Below, piece by piece: positions 11,969 through 40,365 of a stretch of DNA of 64,000 nucleotides. The stretch covers positions 250,501 through 314,500 of the forward strand of contig NC_012995.1 in assembly GCF_000026365.1 (NCBI RefSeq), in the 5' to 3' direction. This DNA comes from Zygosaccharomyces rouxii (Eukaryota > Ascomycota > Saccharomycetes > Saccharomycetales > Saccharomycetaceae). A program made the position numbers and the translations under genes. Every line of letters starts with the position of its first letter. Within the stretch, counting starts at the first letter, position 1. A model generated the notes under the pieces. It was not told the origin of the DNA. It saw nothing but the letters and a program-made list of their open reading frames with translations, and did not search any database.

Positions 11969-11998
11969 CTGTTGCAAGGAAGAAATAAGATAGCAAAA

Positions 11999-12070
11999 AG
12001 GTCCTACCCGGATTCGAACCGGGGTTGTTCGGATCAGAACCGAAAGTGATAACCACTACACTATAAGACC
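11999..12070 (-). tRNA. tRNA-Gln(CUG)
   Basis: The 72-nt cloverleaf runs from GGTCTTATAG (5' end at 12070) to TAGGACC plus discriminator T (11999). The acceptor stem pairs at all seven positions (one G-U). The anticodon stem is TTCGG/CCGAA with loop TTCTGAT, giving anticodon CTG (12035-12037), and the T arm contains GGTTCGAATCC (B box). There is no intron. A TTTTT run starting at the discriminator base on the transcribed strand (11999-11995) serves as the Pol III terminator. It lies between the oxygenase and HAC1; no LTR or other transposon remnant is seen beside it. Confidence 0.97.
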
Positions 12071-12428
12071 AACGTGTGTTGGGACAAATGGGAATAGCAT
12101 CTAACCACATTCACCCAAACCCATCAGATGATACTAAGTGACTATACCCCAATTTAATGCAGTAAGTCACATTCCCATAAAAAATAGGCGCTCAGCTTGT
12201 TCCTCAGCTTCGTTACTCTGTGGCCTCCACTCGTCTCACCACTCTTTCATCTTCATATATTGGCGATCACGCAACGATTATTTTCAGGAGGCTTAGAGAG
12301 AATGTTGTGTCGTGTCGGTGGCAAAGAAACTAAAAAAGAAAAAGAAATTCGTGATATATAAAGGTGACAAATATTCGCCGCAACTACCTTAACTTTCGTA
12401 AGGAACTTTTTGAAATCCCCAAGGAGAA
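12071..12428 (+). promoter_or_regulatory. HAC1 upstream region and 5' UTR
   Basis: This 358-bp stretch between tRNA-Gln and the HAC1 ATG has no ORF. AT-rich sequence with GATATATAAAGG (12353-12364) could serve as a TATA element about 70 bp before the ATG. The last nucleotides before the ATG (12421-12428) belong to the segment that can pair with the HAC1 intron. Confidence 0.5.
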
Positions 12429-12439
12429 ATGAGTGAAGA
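12421..12439 (+). promoter_or_regulatory. HAC1: HAC1 start-codon segment complementary to the HAC1 intron
   Basis: Bases 12426-12437 (GAAATGAGTGAA, containing the ATG at 12429-12431) are a perfect 12-nt Watson-Crick complement of intron bases 13145-13156. A G-U and an A-U pair extend the helix to 12439/13143. Five more pairs (12421-12425) follow across a single intron bulge, up to 13162. The S. cerevisiae HAC1 intron is known to block translation by pairing with the 5' UTR. Here the helix would cover the initiator codon itself. Complementarity is read directly; function is inferred. Confidence 0.7.
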
Positions 12440-13229
12440 TCTAGTCATACCAAGTGATTTCAAATCCACATTACCACCAAGAAAGAGGGCTAGAACCCAG
12501 GAGGAGAAAGAACAGAGAAAAATTGAGAGAATTCTCAGAAACAGGAGGGCCGCCCATCAGAGTAGAGAGAAAAAAAGAGTTCACCTACAGAGATTAGAAC
12601 AGAAATGTAAATTGATGGAATCTCTGTTAGGTAGAATTGATGATTTGGACGGGTTGATCAGAGATAAAAAAGGCAAAGATTTGTTGAAACAATACAGATC
12701 TTTTGCCGCCTCTGACGACGAAGACGAATACGAGAACGAAAATCAAAACGGCTCTTGCGACAAGGAAGAAACACCATCTTCCGGTATCAGTAGCGAGAGT
12801 GTTAGTTCGGTAAAGTCTGAGTCTGAAGCAGGACTGGTTCAGCTTCAGACTCCTGAAAACTATAAGGTTGAAGAAGATACTGGTATCTCTGAATTTGCGG
12901 CCCCTACCGATTTGACTCCTGTGAGTTTCGTCAATGAAGATCCAAAAAGTTTCAATTTGGTTCTAACGAATAATGGCGACTCTGACACCTTGGCACCATC
13001 CCAACCACTACAACCAGTTTGGTTAGGAGTGGAGGACGACGACGACGGTTCATTTGAATTTGACGATTGGCGTAATCCAGCAGTGATTGCCGTATCGTAA
13101 AGATGCATTTCATCATTATTATTGCTATCACTTGGTATTGACTTTTCACTCATTTCTTCCTTCCATCTTGTTCTGTCCGAAGCGCAGTCAAGCTTGATGT
13201 CATTTGAACCAACGTCGTTCTTAACCTAA
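12429..13229 (+). CDS. HAC1: bZIP unfolded-protein-response factor Hac1, with non-spliceosomal intron (exons 12429-13080 and 13180-13229)
   Basis: Unspliced, the frame encodes 223 residues and stops at 13100 with tail ...NPAVIAVS. The basic region is RNRRAAHQSREKKR (about residues 38-51), followed by a leucine zipper. The exon 1 end, DWRNP, is the conserved Hac1 junction. Removing 13081-13179 joins CCAG to AAGCGCAGTC, so the split codon reads Glu and the tail becomes EAQSSLMSFEPTSFLT before TAA at 13227-13229 (233 residues). I recall the S. cerevisiae spliced tail as EAQSGLNSFELNDFFITS, a clear match. The protein activates ER-stress genes after Ire1 cleavage and tRNA-ligase joining. Neighbours are a tRNA upstream and AGX1 downstream (YFL031W/YFL030W in S. 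cerevisiae). Confidence 0.95.
13081..13179 (+). other. HAC1: HAC1 Ire1-type intron, 99 nt
   Basis: The 5' site lies in a hairpin: stem GTAATC (13072-13077) with GATTGC (13085-13090) around the 7-nt loop CAGCAGT, cut CAG|CAGT after 13080. The 3' site lies in hairpin CTGT (13173-13176)/GCAG (13184-13187) around loop CCGAAGC, cut CCG|AAGC after 13179. Both loops fit the Ire1 consensus. The S. cerevisiae intron is about 252 nt, so this one is much shorter. It is flanked by no spliceosomal GTATGT or TACTAAC signals. The intron holds the segment complementary to the start codon (13143-13162). Confidence 0.93.
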
Positions 13230-13231
13230 GT

Positions 13232-13280
13232 CACCATGGCGCGCCCAGTGCTGCGACAGGTCAGCGTTATTGTGATGGTG
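13232..13280 (+). promoter_or_regulatory. HAC1: HAC1 3' UTR hairpin, candidate bipartite targeting element
   Basis: Three bases after the spliced stop codon, CACCAT (13232-13237) can pair with ATGGTG (13275-13280). Inside it AGTGCTG (13247-13253) pairs with CAGCGTT (13262-13268), with two G-U pairs, around loop CGACAGGT. S. cerevisiae HAC1 mRNA has a stem-loop bipartite element in its 3' UTR that recruits it to Ire1 foci. Position and shape suggest the same function here; this is inference. Confidence 0.55.
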
Positions 13281-13658
13281 TAACGTGTATAGTAGTCGAA
13301 ATAAACGGTAAATAAGCTCTAAGAGCGTGGATTGGGAATTTATTGTATTCTGTTTCCCCGGGAGAGAGAGGGAGGAGAGGGAAGTGTATTATTGGCGGGT
13401 TGGTTGGTTGAAGGATCACTCGGGGATACGCGCGTGTTTAACAAGGCAGTGAGTTGCAACCATTTTCTACGATGATCTTAATAAGGATGGTTACTCATTG
13501 TAGGATGGGGTTGCTTGTAATTCCGCTCGGATATAGCAATAGCTTAGCCCTTATCCACCATCCCTAGTTGAGGTACGTTTAACTATAAAAGGGGGTTGAC
13601 ATCTGGCAGAGATCCTGAATGCCATGTCGAAGTAGGTAAGCAAGAGATAAAAGCTAGA
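13281..13658 (+). promoter_or_regulatory. HAC1 3' flank and AGX1 promoter with TATA box
   Basis: This region holds a purine-rich GA tract (about 13360-13385) and a TATA box TATAAAA (13584-13590). The TATA box lies 69 bp before the AGX1 ATG at 13659. A longer AGX1 frame beginning with TTG at 13596 would sit immediately after the TATA box, which argues against it. Confidence 0.6.
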
Positions 13659-34035: not shown

Positions 34036-36738
34036 TCAAGACGATTTTTTTTGAGTCACTGGAACCCCCTGATGTGGTTTAGTGTGATGTTGGTTTGAAA
34101 TACCATTAACCTTCTTCGGCATCGCTGGTGATGATTCCATCTTCGATGAAGGTTGGGACAGCGAAGATGTCGCCGATAAAGAGGGGGATCTGGCATGCTG
34201 TGATTGCTGTTGCTGTTCTTGTTCTTGCTGTTGCAGCTCTTGTTCTTGTTCTTGTTCTTGCTGTATCTGCTGCTGCTGTTGTTGCTGCAATTGCAGTTGT
34301 TTCTGATTCAATTTTTGTTGTCTCATCCTTGCCACGTATTCTTGACGATATTTTATTGTTACGTCACGTAATTGTTCGTAGGACTTACTACCAAGCATTG
34401 TGCCAAACCTGATCACTTGAGTTTCATTAGAAATTTGGTTTAATCTGGAAGGTTCCTCCAAGACTTTGAGACCGTATTCATTTCTTGGTGAATCGTGTTG
34501 CCACTTATCGTAAAGTCTTGAAAATTCATCCCATTTGGAATCATAAACGTTAATCGTCTCTTGTGGATTTTGTTCTTGAGATTCAATCGCGTCAAAATCC
34601 AGAAATTGGTTTAGAACGGAATCTACCGATTTTTCCATATGATTCGGTTTACGATCGATGTACTGAATTCCACAACGTCCAACACGTTTTCTAAATTTAA
34701 CTGGGTATTCCTTCGAATGAATTTCATTATTGGTCTGGAAAGGATCATAAACTTCTAATTTTTTAACCTTAAAATTATTTGATGGTAACTTTTCACCTTC
34801 ATGATTATAAGCTGTAATATCATCAGTATTACCATTGAGATATGCAGGTAAATTACCACAGTAGTAAGATCTATTGATTTCATATTTGGATGAGGCAATT
34901 GACGAAAACGGTGAATTATTTGGCAAAACATCTTTGGGCAACGTAATGTCAAACACTGGATTATATGGATCATCCGTTAAGTTGAAAAGATCTTTGTCCT
35001 CTAACTTACGTTTTTCCATTCTATCGTGAACAAATTTACGTGCATTTCTCTCCTTGTTAGTCAACAGGTGATCTACATCGTCGAGAGTAATATCAGGAAC
35101 TTTAGAAGAAGGTAACCTGACATAAACATGGGATTGAATAGATTGTCCTTGTTGTGCCTGTTGTGATTGCTGTACCTGTGGTTGTTCTTGCTGCTGTTGT
35201 TGCTGGGCCTGCTGGGCTTGTTGTGCTTGTAGTGCTTGTTGAGCCTGTTGAGCCTGTTGAACTTGTTGTGCATGCATATGTCCTGCATGTTTCCCTGATG
35301 CAATAGCCAAGTTTTGAGCCTGTAATTGTTGTAACTGCTGTTTGGTAAGTTTTTGGCCAGATTTGGCCAAGTGTTCCAAATTTTTCTTCAGTATTCTTCC
35401 CTTTAATCCTCTCTTTACAGATGAATCTGACGTAGTGACGGCATTGGTAGAAGATGAAGCAGGTGAGGATACAGCGGCTTCCGCTGCACCTGCTGCACCG
35501 GCGTTTTGCTTCATTTGACTTTGAGCCACCACATTGAGACGCTTTCTCTTGTGATTAACCAAATCTTCATCTTCGCCTCTAATACCTAGAGATCTCTTTA
35601 GACGTTTGACATTGGATCTTTGATCAAATATACGCATATTTTGTTCCAATAGGTCCAATGTAACTTTTTCACGCCTCGCAACTAGTAATGCCATATCTTT
35701 TGCATGTTCTAGTTCTTGATGTAGCAACCGCAATTTTTGACTGTTCAAAATATCTACACGTCTAGTCTTTCTAGGTTGTCTTACATCACGCCTGCGGAAG
35801 CACACGTATGGGTTTGAATCATCTTTTTCATCTGGTCTTTCAAACCTTAATTGAGGGAAAATTTCGGTATTGGAAGAGTTTATTTTTCTTTGTTTCCAAT
35901 ATTCATAAACTTGAACACCGAATTTTTCAATAACTTGTGATAAGGGTCTAATACCTGACTGGCAATCAATAGACTCCAATTGGGTAGTAAAAATTTGATC
36001 TTCTTTGTACCCAATTTCTTTGCCCAACTGCTGTTTTAGTTGTTGGTTAAGCAAATCCGCCTTTAAAAGGGTTGGTTTCAGTTCTTCAAACGATAAGATC
36101 GTTTCTGGATCCATACTTAAAAATGGTTGTCTCTCGTGAATGGCAGACTCGAAACTTGAACAAAGGATTTCAAACTCATCCTCTGACAATTTTTCATCTT
36201 CTTTTTCTTTACCAGCATTTATTTTGCCTTCTAAAAACTCTTCATCTTTTTCATCCATACTGTATGGAGCTCCACAACATTCTTCCAAAGTAGCTGAAAA
36301 CTTTATATAACTTGAAGGTTCCTTGAAACGACCTTGATAAAATTTATCGAAATCGGTCCATGTAGCCGTTGCCTTTGGAGTTGGGATATATTCTCTTTTC
36401 CTTGATTCATCTGATAGATTTGCACCTTTCTGTAAGATTCTATTCAAATGCACTTCTTTCTCTTCATTTTTTTCCATACCCGTCTCAATCTCCATCATCT
36501 CCCTCTCTTGTAACTCGTTTTGATTCAAGCTTTTAAGGTCATTCGGCCTGTATATCTTTAGTCGCTGTTTCACGGAGATTTTACGATGTCTGAACCTTGA
36601 AGCATTAGCGGCTATTTCTGCAGAAGAGCCAGCTGAACCAGCAGCAGCAACATTCGGGGTAGTAGCAGGGGAACCAGGGGAATGATCTTTAATCCTATTT
36701 TTAGTACCATTACTGCTGCTATTAGTAGGGGTAGGCAT
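34036..36738 (-). CDS. EPL1: NuA4 histone acetyltransferase subunit, enhancer of polycomb-like (EPL1)
   Basis: The 900-residue product matches Epl1 (832). The EPcA domain spans the N-terminal region: RFRHRKISVKQRLKIYR, then YIPTPKATATWTDFDKFY and the R-rich NPYVCFRRRDVRQPRKTRR. This part organises the Esa1-Yng2-Eaf6 catalytic module. Two glutamine-rich tracts follow, one at about residues 490-530 (QAQQAQQAQQ type) and one at about 810-850. They are encoded by interrupted CAA/CAG mixes, which should limit expansion. In S. cerevisiae BST1 and EPL1 are also neighbours (YFL025C/YFL024C). Confidence 0.96.
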   Translation of the reverse strand: MPTPTNSSSNGTKNRIKDHSPGSPATTPNVAAAGSAGSSAEIAANASRFRHRKISVKQRLKIYRPNDLKSLNQNELQEREMMEIETGMEKNEEKEVHLNRILQKGANLSDESRKREYIPTPKATATWTDFDKFYQGRFKEPSSYIKFSATLEECCGAPYSMDEKDEEFLEGKINAGKEKEDEKLSEDEFEILCSSFESAIHERQPFLSMDPETILSFEELKPTLLKADLLNQQLKQQLGKEIGYKEDQIFTTQLESIDCQSGIRPLSQVIEKFGVQVYEYWKQRKINSSNTEIFPQLRFERPDEKDDSNPYVCFRRRDVRQPRKTRRVDILNSQKLRLLHQELEHAKDMALLVARREKVTLDLLEQNMRIFDQRSNVKRLKRSLGIRGEDEDLVNHKRKRLNVVAQSQMKQNAGAAGAAEAAVSSPASSSTNAVTTSDSSVKRGLKGRILKKNLEHLAKSGQKLTKQQLQQLQAQNLAIASGKHAGHMHAQQVQQAQQAQQALQAQQAQQAQQQQQQEQPQVQQSQQAQQGQSIQSHVYVRLPSSKVPDITLDDVDHLLTNKERNARKFVHDRMEKRKLEDKDLFNLTDDPYNPVFDITLPKDVLPNNSPFSSIASSKYEINRSYYCGNLPAYLNGNTDDITAYNHEGEKLPSNNFKVKKLEVYDPFQTNNEIHSKEYPVKFRKRVGRCGIQYIDRKPNHMEKSVDSVLNQFLDFDAIESQEQNPQETINVYDSKWDEFSRLYDKWQHDSPRNEYGLKVLEEPSRLNQISNETQVIRFGTMLGSKSYEQLRDVTIKYRQEYVARMRQQKLNQKQLQLQQQQQQQIQQEQEQEQELQQQEQEQQQQSQHARSPSLSATSSLSQPSSKMESSPAMPKKVNGISNQHHTKPHQGVPVTQKKSS

Positions 36739-37770: not shown

Positions 37771-40365
37771 ATGAATAATTTAAACGTTCTAGGTGATTCA
37801 GTAAGAGGTACTTTGGGTAGGTTGCGAGATAAACATGCTTTTCTACACCAGCAAAAGAGATATTATTTAGATGTAAGAAGTCGGCTATTGGAATTGAATA
37901 CGAGGAAAAATGGAGAGGATGACGACGACGACGATGATGATAATCATGATAATACGGAGGAAAAAATTGCGGAGACGGGACTCGAATTCAACGATATAAT
38001 TATATCGACGAAACGGAGAATTTTCATTAGTATTGGATACGAATATTTTGTGGAAAGGAATGAAGAGGAAGCAGTTGCATTTGCAGACGATAAGTTAAGT
38101 TTAATTTCAGAAGCCATAGTTCAATTCGATGATAAGATTCAAGAAGCGGAATTGACGGAAAGACGTATTAAAGAATTAGCTGAGAAAGGTGACGATTTTG
38201 AAGATGAATTTCAAGGCGATGAGGAGGAAGGTTTACCCGCCATGGATATTAGAGAAGAATTAGATGAGGACGGTAATGTCATAAGTAGTAGTGTGACGCC
38301 AAGTGCCAACCAAAAGACTAGAAAGGAACTAGAAAAAACCTTACTTGGTGAACAGCATGAGAATAATGAACAAAATGGATTAAGCGATTTTGAAAAGAAT
38401 CTAAAGGGTAAACTGGTTAAAAAAGAAGAGGAGAAGAAGAAGAAAGAAAGACAAGAGATTGAGAAACGAGAACGGGAAGAGCGTGAGAAACGAGAGCAAG
38501 AAGAGCGTGAGAAACGAGAACAAGAAGAGCGCCAGAGAGAATATGATTCACGCCCTCCAATAGATATGGATATGGAAAATATGTATACTTTTGAAGACTT
38601 AGTCAGAGAGATGGACGAAAGGGATGAACTGGAAGACCAATTAGGTGAAGACGAGTATTTACAATCGGAAGATGAAGATGATGAGGATGAGGACGAAGAT
38701 GATGCTTTCGGCTATTCGGTGATTCCTGGTTCCATGGCACAAAGTTCATTTATGGAGCAGATCAAAAAATTACGTAGAGATCGTTTACCGCCACCCAAGT
38801 CAATTCTTAAATCGCGAAGTAAAGATTCTAAACCCAAGAAATCTGTTGGGTTTGCTGAAAATGCGGACGTTCATGAAGTGGAAAATCTAAAAGACGCTAA
38901 CAAAGGTAATCATCACAATCCATTGTTACAAATTGACGATGACGGTACGGTTCTGAGCAGCGAAGAATTTGATAGTGATCTTTTTGCAAAATTGATTGGT
39001 GTACAGGGACCAGATGAAATCCACGAAAGGTATAAGGAAGAGGTTGAGACCAAGGAAAGACAAGAAGAAGAGAGGGCCCATTCGAAGAAGCGTGTTTCGA
39101 GATTTAAATTGGAAAGAACCTCGAAGGAAGAGAATCATGTGGAAAGGGAACCCGCCGAGAATGGCTCCGATGCTGCAGTTTCTGATGTAGTCGAGAAGGA
39201 AGATCCTGTTGCAGAAGATCCCGCCTCAATTGAACCTCGTTTCCAAAGGTCTGAGAGGAGTGGAGTCGTTTCCGATATAGTCGAGAAAGAAGATCCTGTT
39301 ACAGAAGAGCCTGCTTATACTGATCCTCGTTTCCAAAGGTCTGGAAGAAATGAAGCAGTTTCCGATATAGTCGAGAAAGAAGATCCTGTTACAGAAAAGC
39401 CCACCTCAATTGATCCTCTTTTTCAAAGATCTGGAAGAAATGAAGCAGTTTCTGATATAGTCGAGAAGGAAGACCCTGTAGCAGAAAAGCCCGCCTCAAT
39501 TGATCCTCTTTTCCAAAGGTCTAGAAGAAATGAAGCAGTTTCTGATATAGTGGAAAATGACGTTGACGATGAGGGCCCCGTTTTTGAGAGGAAGCTTGAT
39601 ATCGATCACGATCTCGAACTTGAACTTGATCCGCCACACCATCAAAAGAAGTTCATTCTGAGAAAGCCTCTAAGGTCCCTGCATAAGCCCAAGAGGAAAC
39701 CGCAACAGAGACCTAAAATTGAGCAGTTAGATAGCGACGAGGAGGATGACAAGGAAATTGATGAAGCTAAACCTTTACCAAATGAGAATAATGATGATTC
39801 ATCCACAGATTTTCCACCTGAAGTCCAAAAAGCCGCTAGGGGACCACAGAAACCTGTAGTTATACCTAATGTTGACTATAAATCGTTGGGCGAAAATTTA
39901 GACGATATGGCCAGGGCATACGCTTTGGGCGTCTATGACGATGATTTACACGATGATCCCGGAACTCTAGTAGAAAAGTTGGATGATTTCAAAAACTACA
40001 ACAAACAAGTCGAACAGCTGGAAGATGATATCAAAGAATTTCGCCTAAATAATCCGGCCCAAGAGGAAGTAAATGAAGACGACGACGATGATGATAATGG
40101 GCCTCTGATGACAGATGTGGTGGAAAAGGATTTACCCTCCAATTACGACGAGCAATATGATGAAGATGAAGATTTATCCCTGCATCCAGACAAGCTGAGC
40201 GAGTCTGTTGCCATAGACTATCTCCGCTTCAAAGAATCTCTAATGAAAGACAGATTCGCTGAATATAGAACTGATGAAGAGAAACAACTGGAACCCATTG
40301 ACGAGTGGGGGAACCCAGTCAAGCGTAGTAGGTTCAAGTCACAGAGATTTGGACTCGGCAACTAG
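37771..40365 (+). CDS. BUD27: URI-type unconventional prefoldin (BUD27)
   Basis: The 864-residue product matches Bud27/URI (796). The N-terminal prefoldin-like coiled coil (LRDKHAFLHQQKRYYLDVRSRL) is split by an acidic insert; VGFAENADVHEVENL is a conserved middle motif. Coiled-coil Glu/Arg repeats (about residues 215-250) and a block of four 30-residue repeats (residues 469-588) lengthen the protein. The C-terminal 150 residues (VVIPNVDYKSLGENLDDMARAYALG and following) resemble the Bud27 tail. It helps assemble RNA polymerases and links TOR to translation initiation. Confidence 0.9.
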   Translation: MNNLNVLGDSVRGTLGRLRDKHAFLHQQKRYYLDVRSRLLELNTRKNGEDDDDDDDDNHDNTEEKIAETGLEFNDIIISTKRRIFISIGYEYFVERNEEEAVAFADDKLSLISEAIVQFDDKIQEAELTERRIKELAEKGDDFEDEFQGDEEEGLPAMDIREELDEDGNVISSSVTPSANQKTRKELEKTLLGEQHENNEQNGLSDFEKNLKGKLVKKEEEKKKKERQEIEKREREEREKREQEEREKREQEERQREYDSRPPIDMDMENMYTFEDLVREMDERDELEDQLGEDEYLQSEDEDDEDEDEDDAFGYSVIPGSMAQSSFMEQIKKLRRDRLPPPKSILKSRSKDSKPKKSVGFAENADVHEVENLKDANKGNHHNPLLQIDDDGTVLSSEEFDSDLFAKLIGVQGPDEIHERYKEEVETKERQEEERAHSKKRVSRFKLERTSKEENHVEREPAENGSDAAVSDVVEKEDPVAEDPASIEPRFQRSERSGVVSDIVEKEDPVTEEPAYTDPRFQRSGRNEAVSDIVEKEDPVTEKPTSIDPLFQRSGRNEAVSDIVEKEDPVAEKPASIDPLFQRSRRNEAVSDIVENDVDDEGPVFERKLDIDHDLELELDPPHHQKKFILRKPLRSLHKPKRKPQQRPKIEQLDSDEEDDKEIDEAKPLPNENNDDSSTDFPPEVQKAARGPQKPVVIPNVDYKSLGENLDDMARAYALGVYDDDLHDDPGTLVEKLDDFKNYNKQVEQLEDDIKEFRLNNPAQEEVNEDDDDDDNGPLMTDVVEKDLPSNYDEQYDEDEDLSLHPDKLSESVAIDYLRFKESLMKDRFAEYRTDEEKQLEPIDEWGNPVKRSRFKSQRFGLGN
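39175..39534 (+). repeat. Four tandem 90-bp repeats within BUD27
   Basis: Units start at 39175, 39265, 39355 and 39445, each 90 bp, encoding AVSDIVEKEDPVTEKPxSID-type 30-residue units. A truncated fifth copy starts at 39535 (AVSDIVEN). Units 3 and 4 are the most alike. Confidence 0.93.

Follow-up and report, generated by a model that had tools for sequence, protein, structure and literature searches.

Predicted pairing of the HAC1 intron with the start region of its own mRNA in Zygosaccharomyces rouxii suggests a HAC1 translational lock that masks the start codon

In Z. rouxii, the 99-nt intron of the HAC1 gene carries an almost perfect antisense copy of the start region of the same gene, and the two segments form a predicted 34-bp helix covering the AUG and the first ten codons. 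The sequence, the helix, its significance, its position and its compatibility with the splice hairpins were established by computation, on a window (the whole stretch of DNA analyzed) of 64,000 nt. As the best reading of these results, we propose that unspliced HAC1 mRNA is very likely under a form of translational lock that masks the start codon itself.

A predicted long-range helix between the start codon and the intron

The 5' arm of the helix (12421..12458, forward strand) spans -8 to +30 and contains the AUG and codons 1-10, and the 3' arm (13127..13162, forward strand), 668 nt apart from it, lies within the intron; both were delimited by complement search, alignment and RNAduplex. Two collinear perfect cores were found: i) a 13-nt run at 12425..12437 (forward strand), pairing with 13145-13157, and ii) a 12-nt run at 12447..12458 (forward strand), pairing with 13127-13138. 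The initial annotation had reported a 12-nt perfect complement between 12426-12437 (GAAATGAGTGAA) and 13145-13156; this match is exact, and with one more nucleotide the full Watson-Crick run is 13 nt. It had also proposed that the intron pairs over the initiator ATG, which agrees with the span of the helix (-8 to +30, AUG included). The helix of ~19 pairs that it described does exist, but the estimate of its size was too low, the second collinear 12-nt run having been missed.

RNAduplex on 12421-12458 and 13127-13162 returned 34 bp (33 Watson-Crick pairs and one G-U, 12438-13144) at -43.2 kcal/mol, with a 4-nt bulge in the mRNA (12439-12442) and two 1-nt bulges in the intron (13139 and 13158). 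The two halves are of similar strength when computed separately: -23.3 kcal/mol for the half seen earlier and -20.7 kcal/mol for the second. When 12421-12458 was set against the reverse-complemented intron, the alignment had 34 identical columns, six gap columns and no mismatch; in the blastn version of the alignment, 33 of 40 columns were identical, with six gap columns and one mismatch.

Between the intron and positions 12301-13420, perfect complements of at least 8 nt numbered three, namely the 13-mer, the 12-mer (12447-12458) and a 10-mer (12762-12771), and none of them started upstream of 12425. The 10-mer lies in exon 1 and is perfectly complementary to intron positions 13153-13162; it is possibly a weak competitor for the helix. 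A further segment just 3' of the preceding ORF (11973-11989) complements intron positions 13149-13165 over 17 nt at 88%.

The initial annotation had called for folding of the unspliced transcript. In computed equilibrium folds (seven transcript starts from -60 to -10, each with three ends), the predicted probability of AUG-intron pairing was 0.998-1.0 in all 21, and forbidding the helix cost 42.9 and 43.5 kcal/mol of ensemble energy for the two transcript starts so treated. The mean unpaired probability over -8..+19 was 0.16-0.21 in the 21 unspliced folds versus 0.42-0.54 in three spliced folds, in which the AUG bases were still partly paired (0.10-0.40 unpaired). As for the two hairpins at which Ire1 would cut, forcing both of them cost 3.3 kcal/mol and kept 32 long-range pairs (one transcript start); in the unforced fold another intron hairpin supplants the 5' splice hairpin, whose pair probability was 0.04-0.05. 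Within this folding model, the splice hairpins are shown to be compatible with a closed helix.

The HAC1 gene, its start codon and its Ire1-type intron

The unspliced ORF (12429..13100, forward strand) encodes Hac1u, a bZIP protein of 223 aa, as identified from the reading frame, Pfam and homologues. Pfam bZIP_1 matched residues 26-65 with an E-value of 1.8e-5 and 25.2 bits, below the curated cut-off of 27.6, and a second Pfam bZIP model gave 21 bits with a curated cut-off of 22.3. Despite these sub-cut-off scores, full-length homologue matches make orthology to HAC1 clear at the level of sequence: among those listed, the best named matches were a Z. rouxii protein (95% identity) and Z. parabailii HAC1 (60% and 58% identity). 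The protein search retained 516 of 858 candidates, and the comparison drew on 120 of the 516, of which 27 were inspected and 11 aligned. Being proteins, these homologues are uninformative on the non-coding arm of the helix. A pattern search for HAC1 DNA of relatives confirmed none of 18 stretches in viral contigs and none of 59 in genome contigs.

From the reading frame, the start codon at 12429 is assigned with confidence, because an in-frame TGA (12411-12413) lies 5' of the ATG and the second in-frame ATG, codon 63, falls inside the bZIP match. The nearest relatives P0002, P0005, P0006 and P0007 share a start of the form MS(E/Q)D. Two other relatives have different predicted starts: P0003 (216 aa, 78% identity, source tag lgn) begins MVIPSDF, and P0004 begins at codon 63. 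Both may be truncations; P0003 is either truncated or a protein without the MSED start. Over the first ten residues, the other Z. rouxii protein shows a single difference, L5I, which requires a change in codon 5 (12441-12443), whose first two bases are in the helix bulge and whose third pairs with 13143. The position of L5I is compatible with the helix, and we claim nothing beyond compatibility for it. In HAC1 proteins of the Z. bailii type, residues 3 and 9, both within the helix span, differ from those of Z. rouxii, with Q3 and A9 in place of E3 and S9. These differences require base changes at 12435, which pairs with 13147, and at 12453-12454, which pair with 13132 and 13131.

A TATA-box-like sequence, TATATAAA (12355..12362, forward strand), stands 74 nt 5' of the ATG. 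In yeast, the distance from TATA box to transcription start is usually 40-120 nt, and this spacing therefore suggests that the HAC1 leader is short, roughly 35 nt or less. Such a leader would leave little room for an upstream lock, and thus a lock placed at the AUG would also be cap-proximal.

Directly 5' of HAC1, a divergent tRNA-Gln(CTG) gene (11999-12070, reverse strand) bounds the HAC1 promoter; it was the only Rfam match between 11000 and 14000. On the reverse strand, an open frame of 97 aa (13153-12860) runs antisense to the HAC1 coding sequence and starts at the reverse ATG of the intron. Its first residues, MSEKSIPSD, echo the MSEDLVIPSD of HAC1: the intron arm repeats the start in inverted orientation, with a net difference of three bases. 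As an antisense gene, this frame, known as an open frame from sequence alone, was set aside.

The intron itself (13081..13179, forward strand) is bounded by two hairpins of the Ire1 type. The consensus, taken from an excerpt of PMC549064, consists of a 7-nt loop with C1, G3 and G6, a 3' leg beginning with G, and a cut after G3. At the 5' splice site, the hairpin (13072..13090, forward strand) has a 6-bp stem and the 7-nt loop CAG/CAGU, with the cut after 13080; at the 3' splice site, the hairpin (13173..13187, forward strand) has a 4-bp stem and the 7-nt loop CCG/AAGC, with the cut after 13179. Both of them agree with the consensus in loop length, C1, G3, G6 and the G of the 3' leg, bearing out the intron length of 99 nt given in the initial annotation. 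Z. rouxii splice sites are credited to Hooks and Griffiths-Jones 2011 in the excerpted text of PMC8002603.

The cut sites delimit a coding part of exon 1 at 12429..13080 and of exon 2 at 13180..13229 (both forward strand), the latter closing with a TAA stop (13227-13229). The last six residues of Hac1u, AVIAVS, are encoded by the intron, the first of the six codons being split by the junction. Predicted splicing exchanges this tail for that of exon 2, and the predicted spliced protein ends in EAQSSLMSFEPTSFLT, a C-terminus identical to that of the Z. parabailii HAC1 entries P0005 and P0007. The 3' arm of the helix (13127-13162) falls wholly within the intron, in line with the earlier proposal that splicing would remove the blocking strand.

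A domain search of the genome (9.76 Mb, 7 contigs) found one match each to the IRE1-type RNase and the Trl1-type ligase, both above cut-off. The linker of Ire1 (L029:421-459), translated by eye, encodes a basic RGG stretch, KKKRKRGTRGGKK, which resembles the [+]-box of S. cerevisiae, and the [+]-box docks HAC1 mRNA in that yeast (PMC4279078, in excerpt). Downstream of the stop, the HAC1 3' UTR (13229-13420) folds as an extended branched stem (-47.6 kcal/mol, computed), which may hold a candidate 3' BE (bipartite element).

A putative lock at the start codon and the attenuators known from other yeasts

HAC1 attenuation by the intron is best described in S. cerevisiae. There, the intron forms 15 bp (-25.15 kcal/mol by IntaRNA) with 19 bases, -20 to -38, of a 68-nt leader, at a distance of ~30 nt from the cap. 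For repression, a leader-intron duplex of 11 bp is enough, and 24 nt added between cap and duplex relieve it (PMC8881652, available excerpt). With compensatory mutations the block is regained (PMC5114014, in part). In K. lactis, -52 to -28 are predicted to pair with +909 to +936, the intron being 297 nt long (PMC6116095, in part). Excerpts of PMC6116095, PMC8002603 and PMC6627864 link attenuation to long introns or to close relatives of S. cerevisiae.

The Z. rouxii arrangement resembles that of S. cerevisiae: the HAC1 intron is predicted to pair with the 5' end of its own mRNA and would be taken out by Ire1 splicing, and the 34 bp exceed the S. cerevisiae minimum of 11 bp. It differs in three respects: i) the S. 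cerevisiae intron is 252 nt long and its type of attenuator is characterized by a long intron (over 100 nt), whereas that of Z. rouxii has 99 nt; ii) the S. cerevisiae helix lies within the 5' UTR, whereas that of Z. rouxii runs from -8 to +30, including the AUG and only 8 nt upstream of it; iii) the S. cerevisiae helix has 15 bp at -25.15 kcal/mol (IntaRNA) and the Z. rouxii helix 34 bp at -43.2 kcal/mol (RNAduplex), energies that are roughly comparable, the programs being different. With K. lactis it shares a predicted long-range pairing of intron and 5' end, but there the intron has 297 nt and the helix is upstream of the AUG. Outside the yeasts, in bacterial hok-type mRNAs a 3' segment folds back and prevents initiation close to the 5' end until RNA processing takes it away. 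HAC1 of Z. rouxii would be alike in a fold-back block released by RNA processing, while the hok-type mRNAs are prokaryotic, are trimmed at the 3' end and have no intron.

The initial annotation had seen in this pairing a HAC1 lock of a distinct form. The description fits, since both the helix of S. cerevisiae and the one predicted for K. lactis sit 5' of the AUG; the functional step is one that we infer. Within the literature covered by our search (most subscription papers lay outside it, and the sources were seen as excerpts), neither a HAC1 intron that pairs across the start codon nor HAC1 intron pairing in any Zygosaccharomyces was described, and for this species the search found no experiment on a HAC1 lock.

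In the start-codon lock that we propose, the intron of unspliced HAC1 mRNA would fold back over 668 nt and form the 34-bp helix at -8 to +30. With the AUG and the first ten codons double-stranded, the 43S complex would be unable to settle on the AUG and, given a short 5' UTR, its loading would be hampered as well. Ire1 would then cleave at the two flanking hairpins, which could form with the helix closed, and Trl1 would ligate the exons, so that the blocking strand would no longer be part of HAC1 mRNA. Here it is the repression, the release, the removal of the intron and the length of the leader that we infer.

Since the helix has over twice as many pairs as the S. cerevisiae duplex, the excised intron probably needs to be stripped off or degraded before translation begins. 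Di Santo et al. considered that a stabler pairing might fail to dissociate after splicing (PMC5114014, excerpt), and Cherry et al. propose that in S. cerevisiae translation of spliced HAC1 requires decay of the excised intron by the Trl1 kinase and Xrn1 (PMC6456296, excerpt). A 34-bp helix should strengthen the need for decay of the excised intron; on the other hand, so stable a helix might resist release after splicing, a point that counts against the lock. In a more specific version, the lock would have been gained in one step: an inverted copy of the start in the intron replaced an ancestral 5'-UTR lock, and the excised 99-nt intron, strongly antisense to its own mRNA, stays on or re-binds the spliced message, so that the timing of Hac1 production would be set by the breakdown or unwinding of the intron and not by the splicing step. 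We regard this version as possible but rather doubtful.

The pairing might also serve chiefly to silence unspliced mRNA for docking at Ire1 clusters, with silence as the means and with Hac1u mostly disposed of via its intron-encoded tail. This matches S. cerevisiae, where the 3' BE targets the mRNA to Ire1 clusters while it is translationally repressed (PMC4279078, excerpt) and the tail of Hac1u is a degron (PMC5114014, excerpt), and the basic RGG stretch of the Ire1 linker, translated by eye, is similar to the [+]-box. The Z. rouxii tail, however, has just three residues in common with the S. cerevisiae degron (PMC8002603, excerpt). Moreover, docking would still require the helix to block initiation and is more a complement than a rival to the start-codon lock; as the main purpose of the pairing, we consider it improbable.

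Origin of the helix and the likelihood of a chance match

The helix was perhaps produced by inverted duplication of the start region. Such copying is favored because the arms differ by indels only in the best alignment and the duplex holds a single G-U; a helix selected pair by pair should carry internal mismatches and wobbles, and the Z. rouxii arms therefore point to copying, as judged from one sequence.

A copied arm could also be a scar of mutation without any role in regulation, left for instance when template switching placed a copy of the start, inverted, in the intron. The arms indeed look copied rather than built pair by pair, with no substitution over 34 identical and six gap columns, and a comparable inverted repeat (score 37 versus 36) exists between two other genes within 264 kb. 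Yet a scar would have had to fall in the one gene, and in the one segment of it, for which pairing with the 5' end was to be expected from S. cerevisiae and K. lactis, and to cover the AUG while leaving both Ire1 hairpins usable. Furthermore, no perfect complement of at least 8 nt starts upstream of 12425 (within 12301-13420), and thus the intron without this helix would have no obvious block. A scar devoid of function therefore seems to us unlikely, and the start-codon lock is the reading that we keep.

As for chance, the initial annotation had put the 12-nt match at well under 1 in 1000. Against -20..+21, runs of at least 12 nt arose in 120 of 100,000 dinucleotide-shuffled introns and 194 of 100,000 shuffled starts, and runs of at least 13 nt in 32 and 51 of 100,000 respectively; the match is improbable as stated, although the figure was slightly optimistic for the 12-mer alone. 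The full gapped alignment scored 23, with maxima of 19 among 40,000 shuffled introns and 17.5 among 40,000 shuffled starts. A Gumbel fit extrapolates to p = 1.2e-7 (shuffled introns) and 1.7e-7 (shuffled starts) for this score, values that serve as a guide only because the gapped scoring was adopted once the second run had been noticed.

Real sequences served as further controls, in the form of 129 other ORFs of at least 150 aa from the window and 200 kb of another contig. The highest score was 14.5 when the start of each of these genes was compared with tiles of its own transcript (4334 tiles), 11 when the 129 other starts were compared with the HAC1 intron, and 21.5 among 30,000 random cross pairs, all below the 23 of HAC1. 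In the genome, the 13-mer occurs at four places and the 12-mer of the second core, ATACCAAGTGAT, at six, two of which are in each case the helix arms.

Plain RNAduplex energy was a poor discriminator. Over -60..+21, 29 of the 129 own-gene controls were at least as stable as HAC1, and so were 2226 of 10,000 cross pairs. Over -20..+21, the same held for one of the 129 own-gene controls, for two of the 129 other starts when paired with this intron, and for 128 of 10,000 cross pairs. The energy discriminates poorly because such windows cut the helix and long duplexes gather weak pairs. An ungapped search of the window for inverted repeats (25 of 40 pairs listed) contained only the second half of the helix, as I16. 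Among the 1271 inverted-repeat pairs less than 2 kb apart that blastn found in 264 kb, the HAC1 pair ranked second, with a score of 36 behind a top score of 37. The top pair (36445-36476 and 38051-38083, 28 of 33 positions identical) joins an EPL1-like gene and its DUF3835/prefoldin-like neighbor.

Chance complementarity of a start rich in purines and an intron rich in pyrimidines was rejected on the strength of the shuffles, the real-gene tiles and the genome word counts and is extremely improbable: the bias in composition does exist (a 10-nt complement at 12762-12771, a 17-nt, 88% one at 11973-11989) and a lone 13-nt run does arise in 32-51 of 100,000 shuffles, but the second collinear 12-mer is not purine-only, and a score of 23 was reached in none of the 80,000 shuffles, 4334 real tiles and 30,000 cross pairs.

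A HAC1 intron lock as such is already known; the predicted Z. rouxii form differs in its position at the start codon and in a helix with more than twice the pairs of that of S. cerevisiae. The papers covered associate the HAC1 attenuator with long introns, with the 5' UTR and with species closely related to S. cerevisiae. If the start-codon lock holds true, the lock would be re-inventable: its blocking function would have been kept while its site moved to the start codon, and this in an intron of 99 nt. Moreover, the predicted stability of the helix turns the release of the excised intron into a real mechanistic question.
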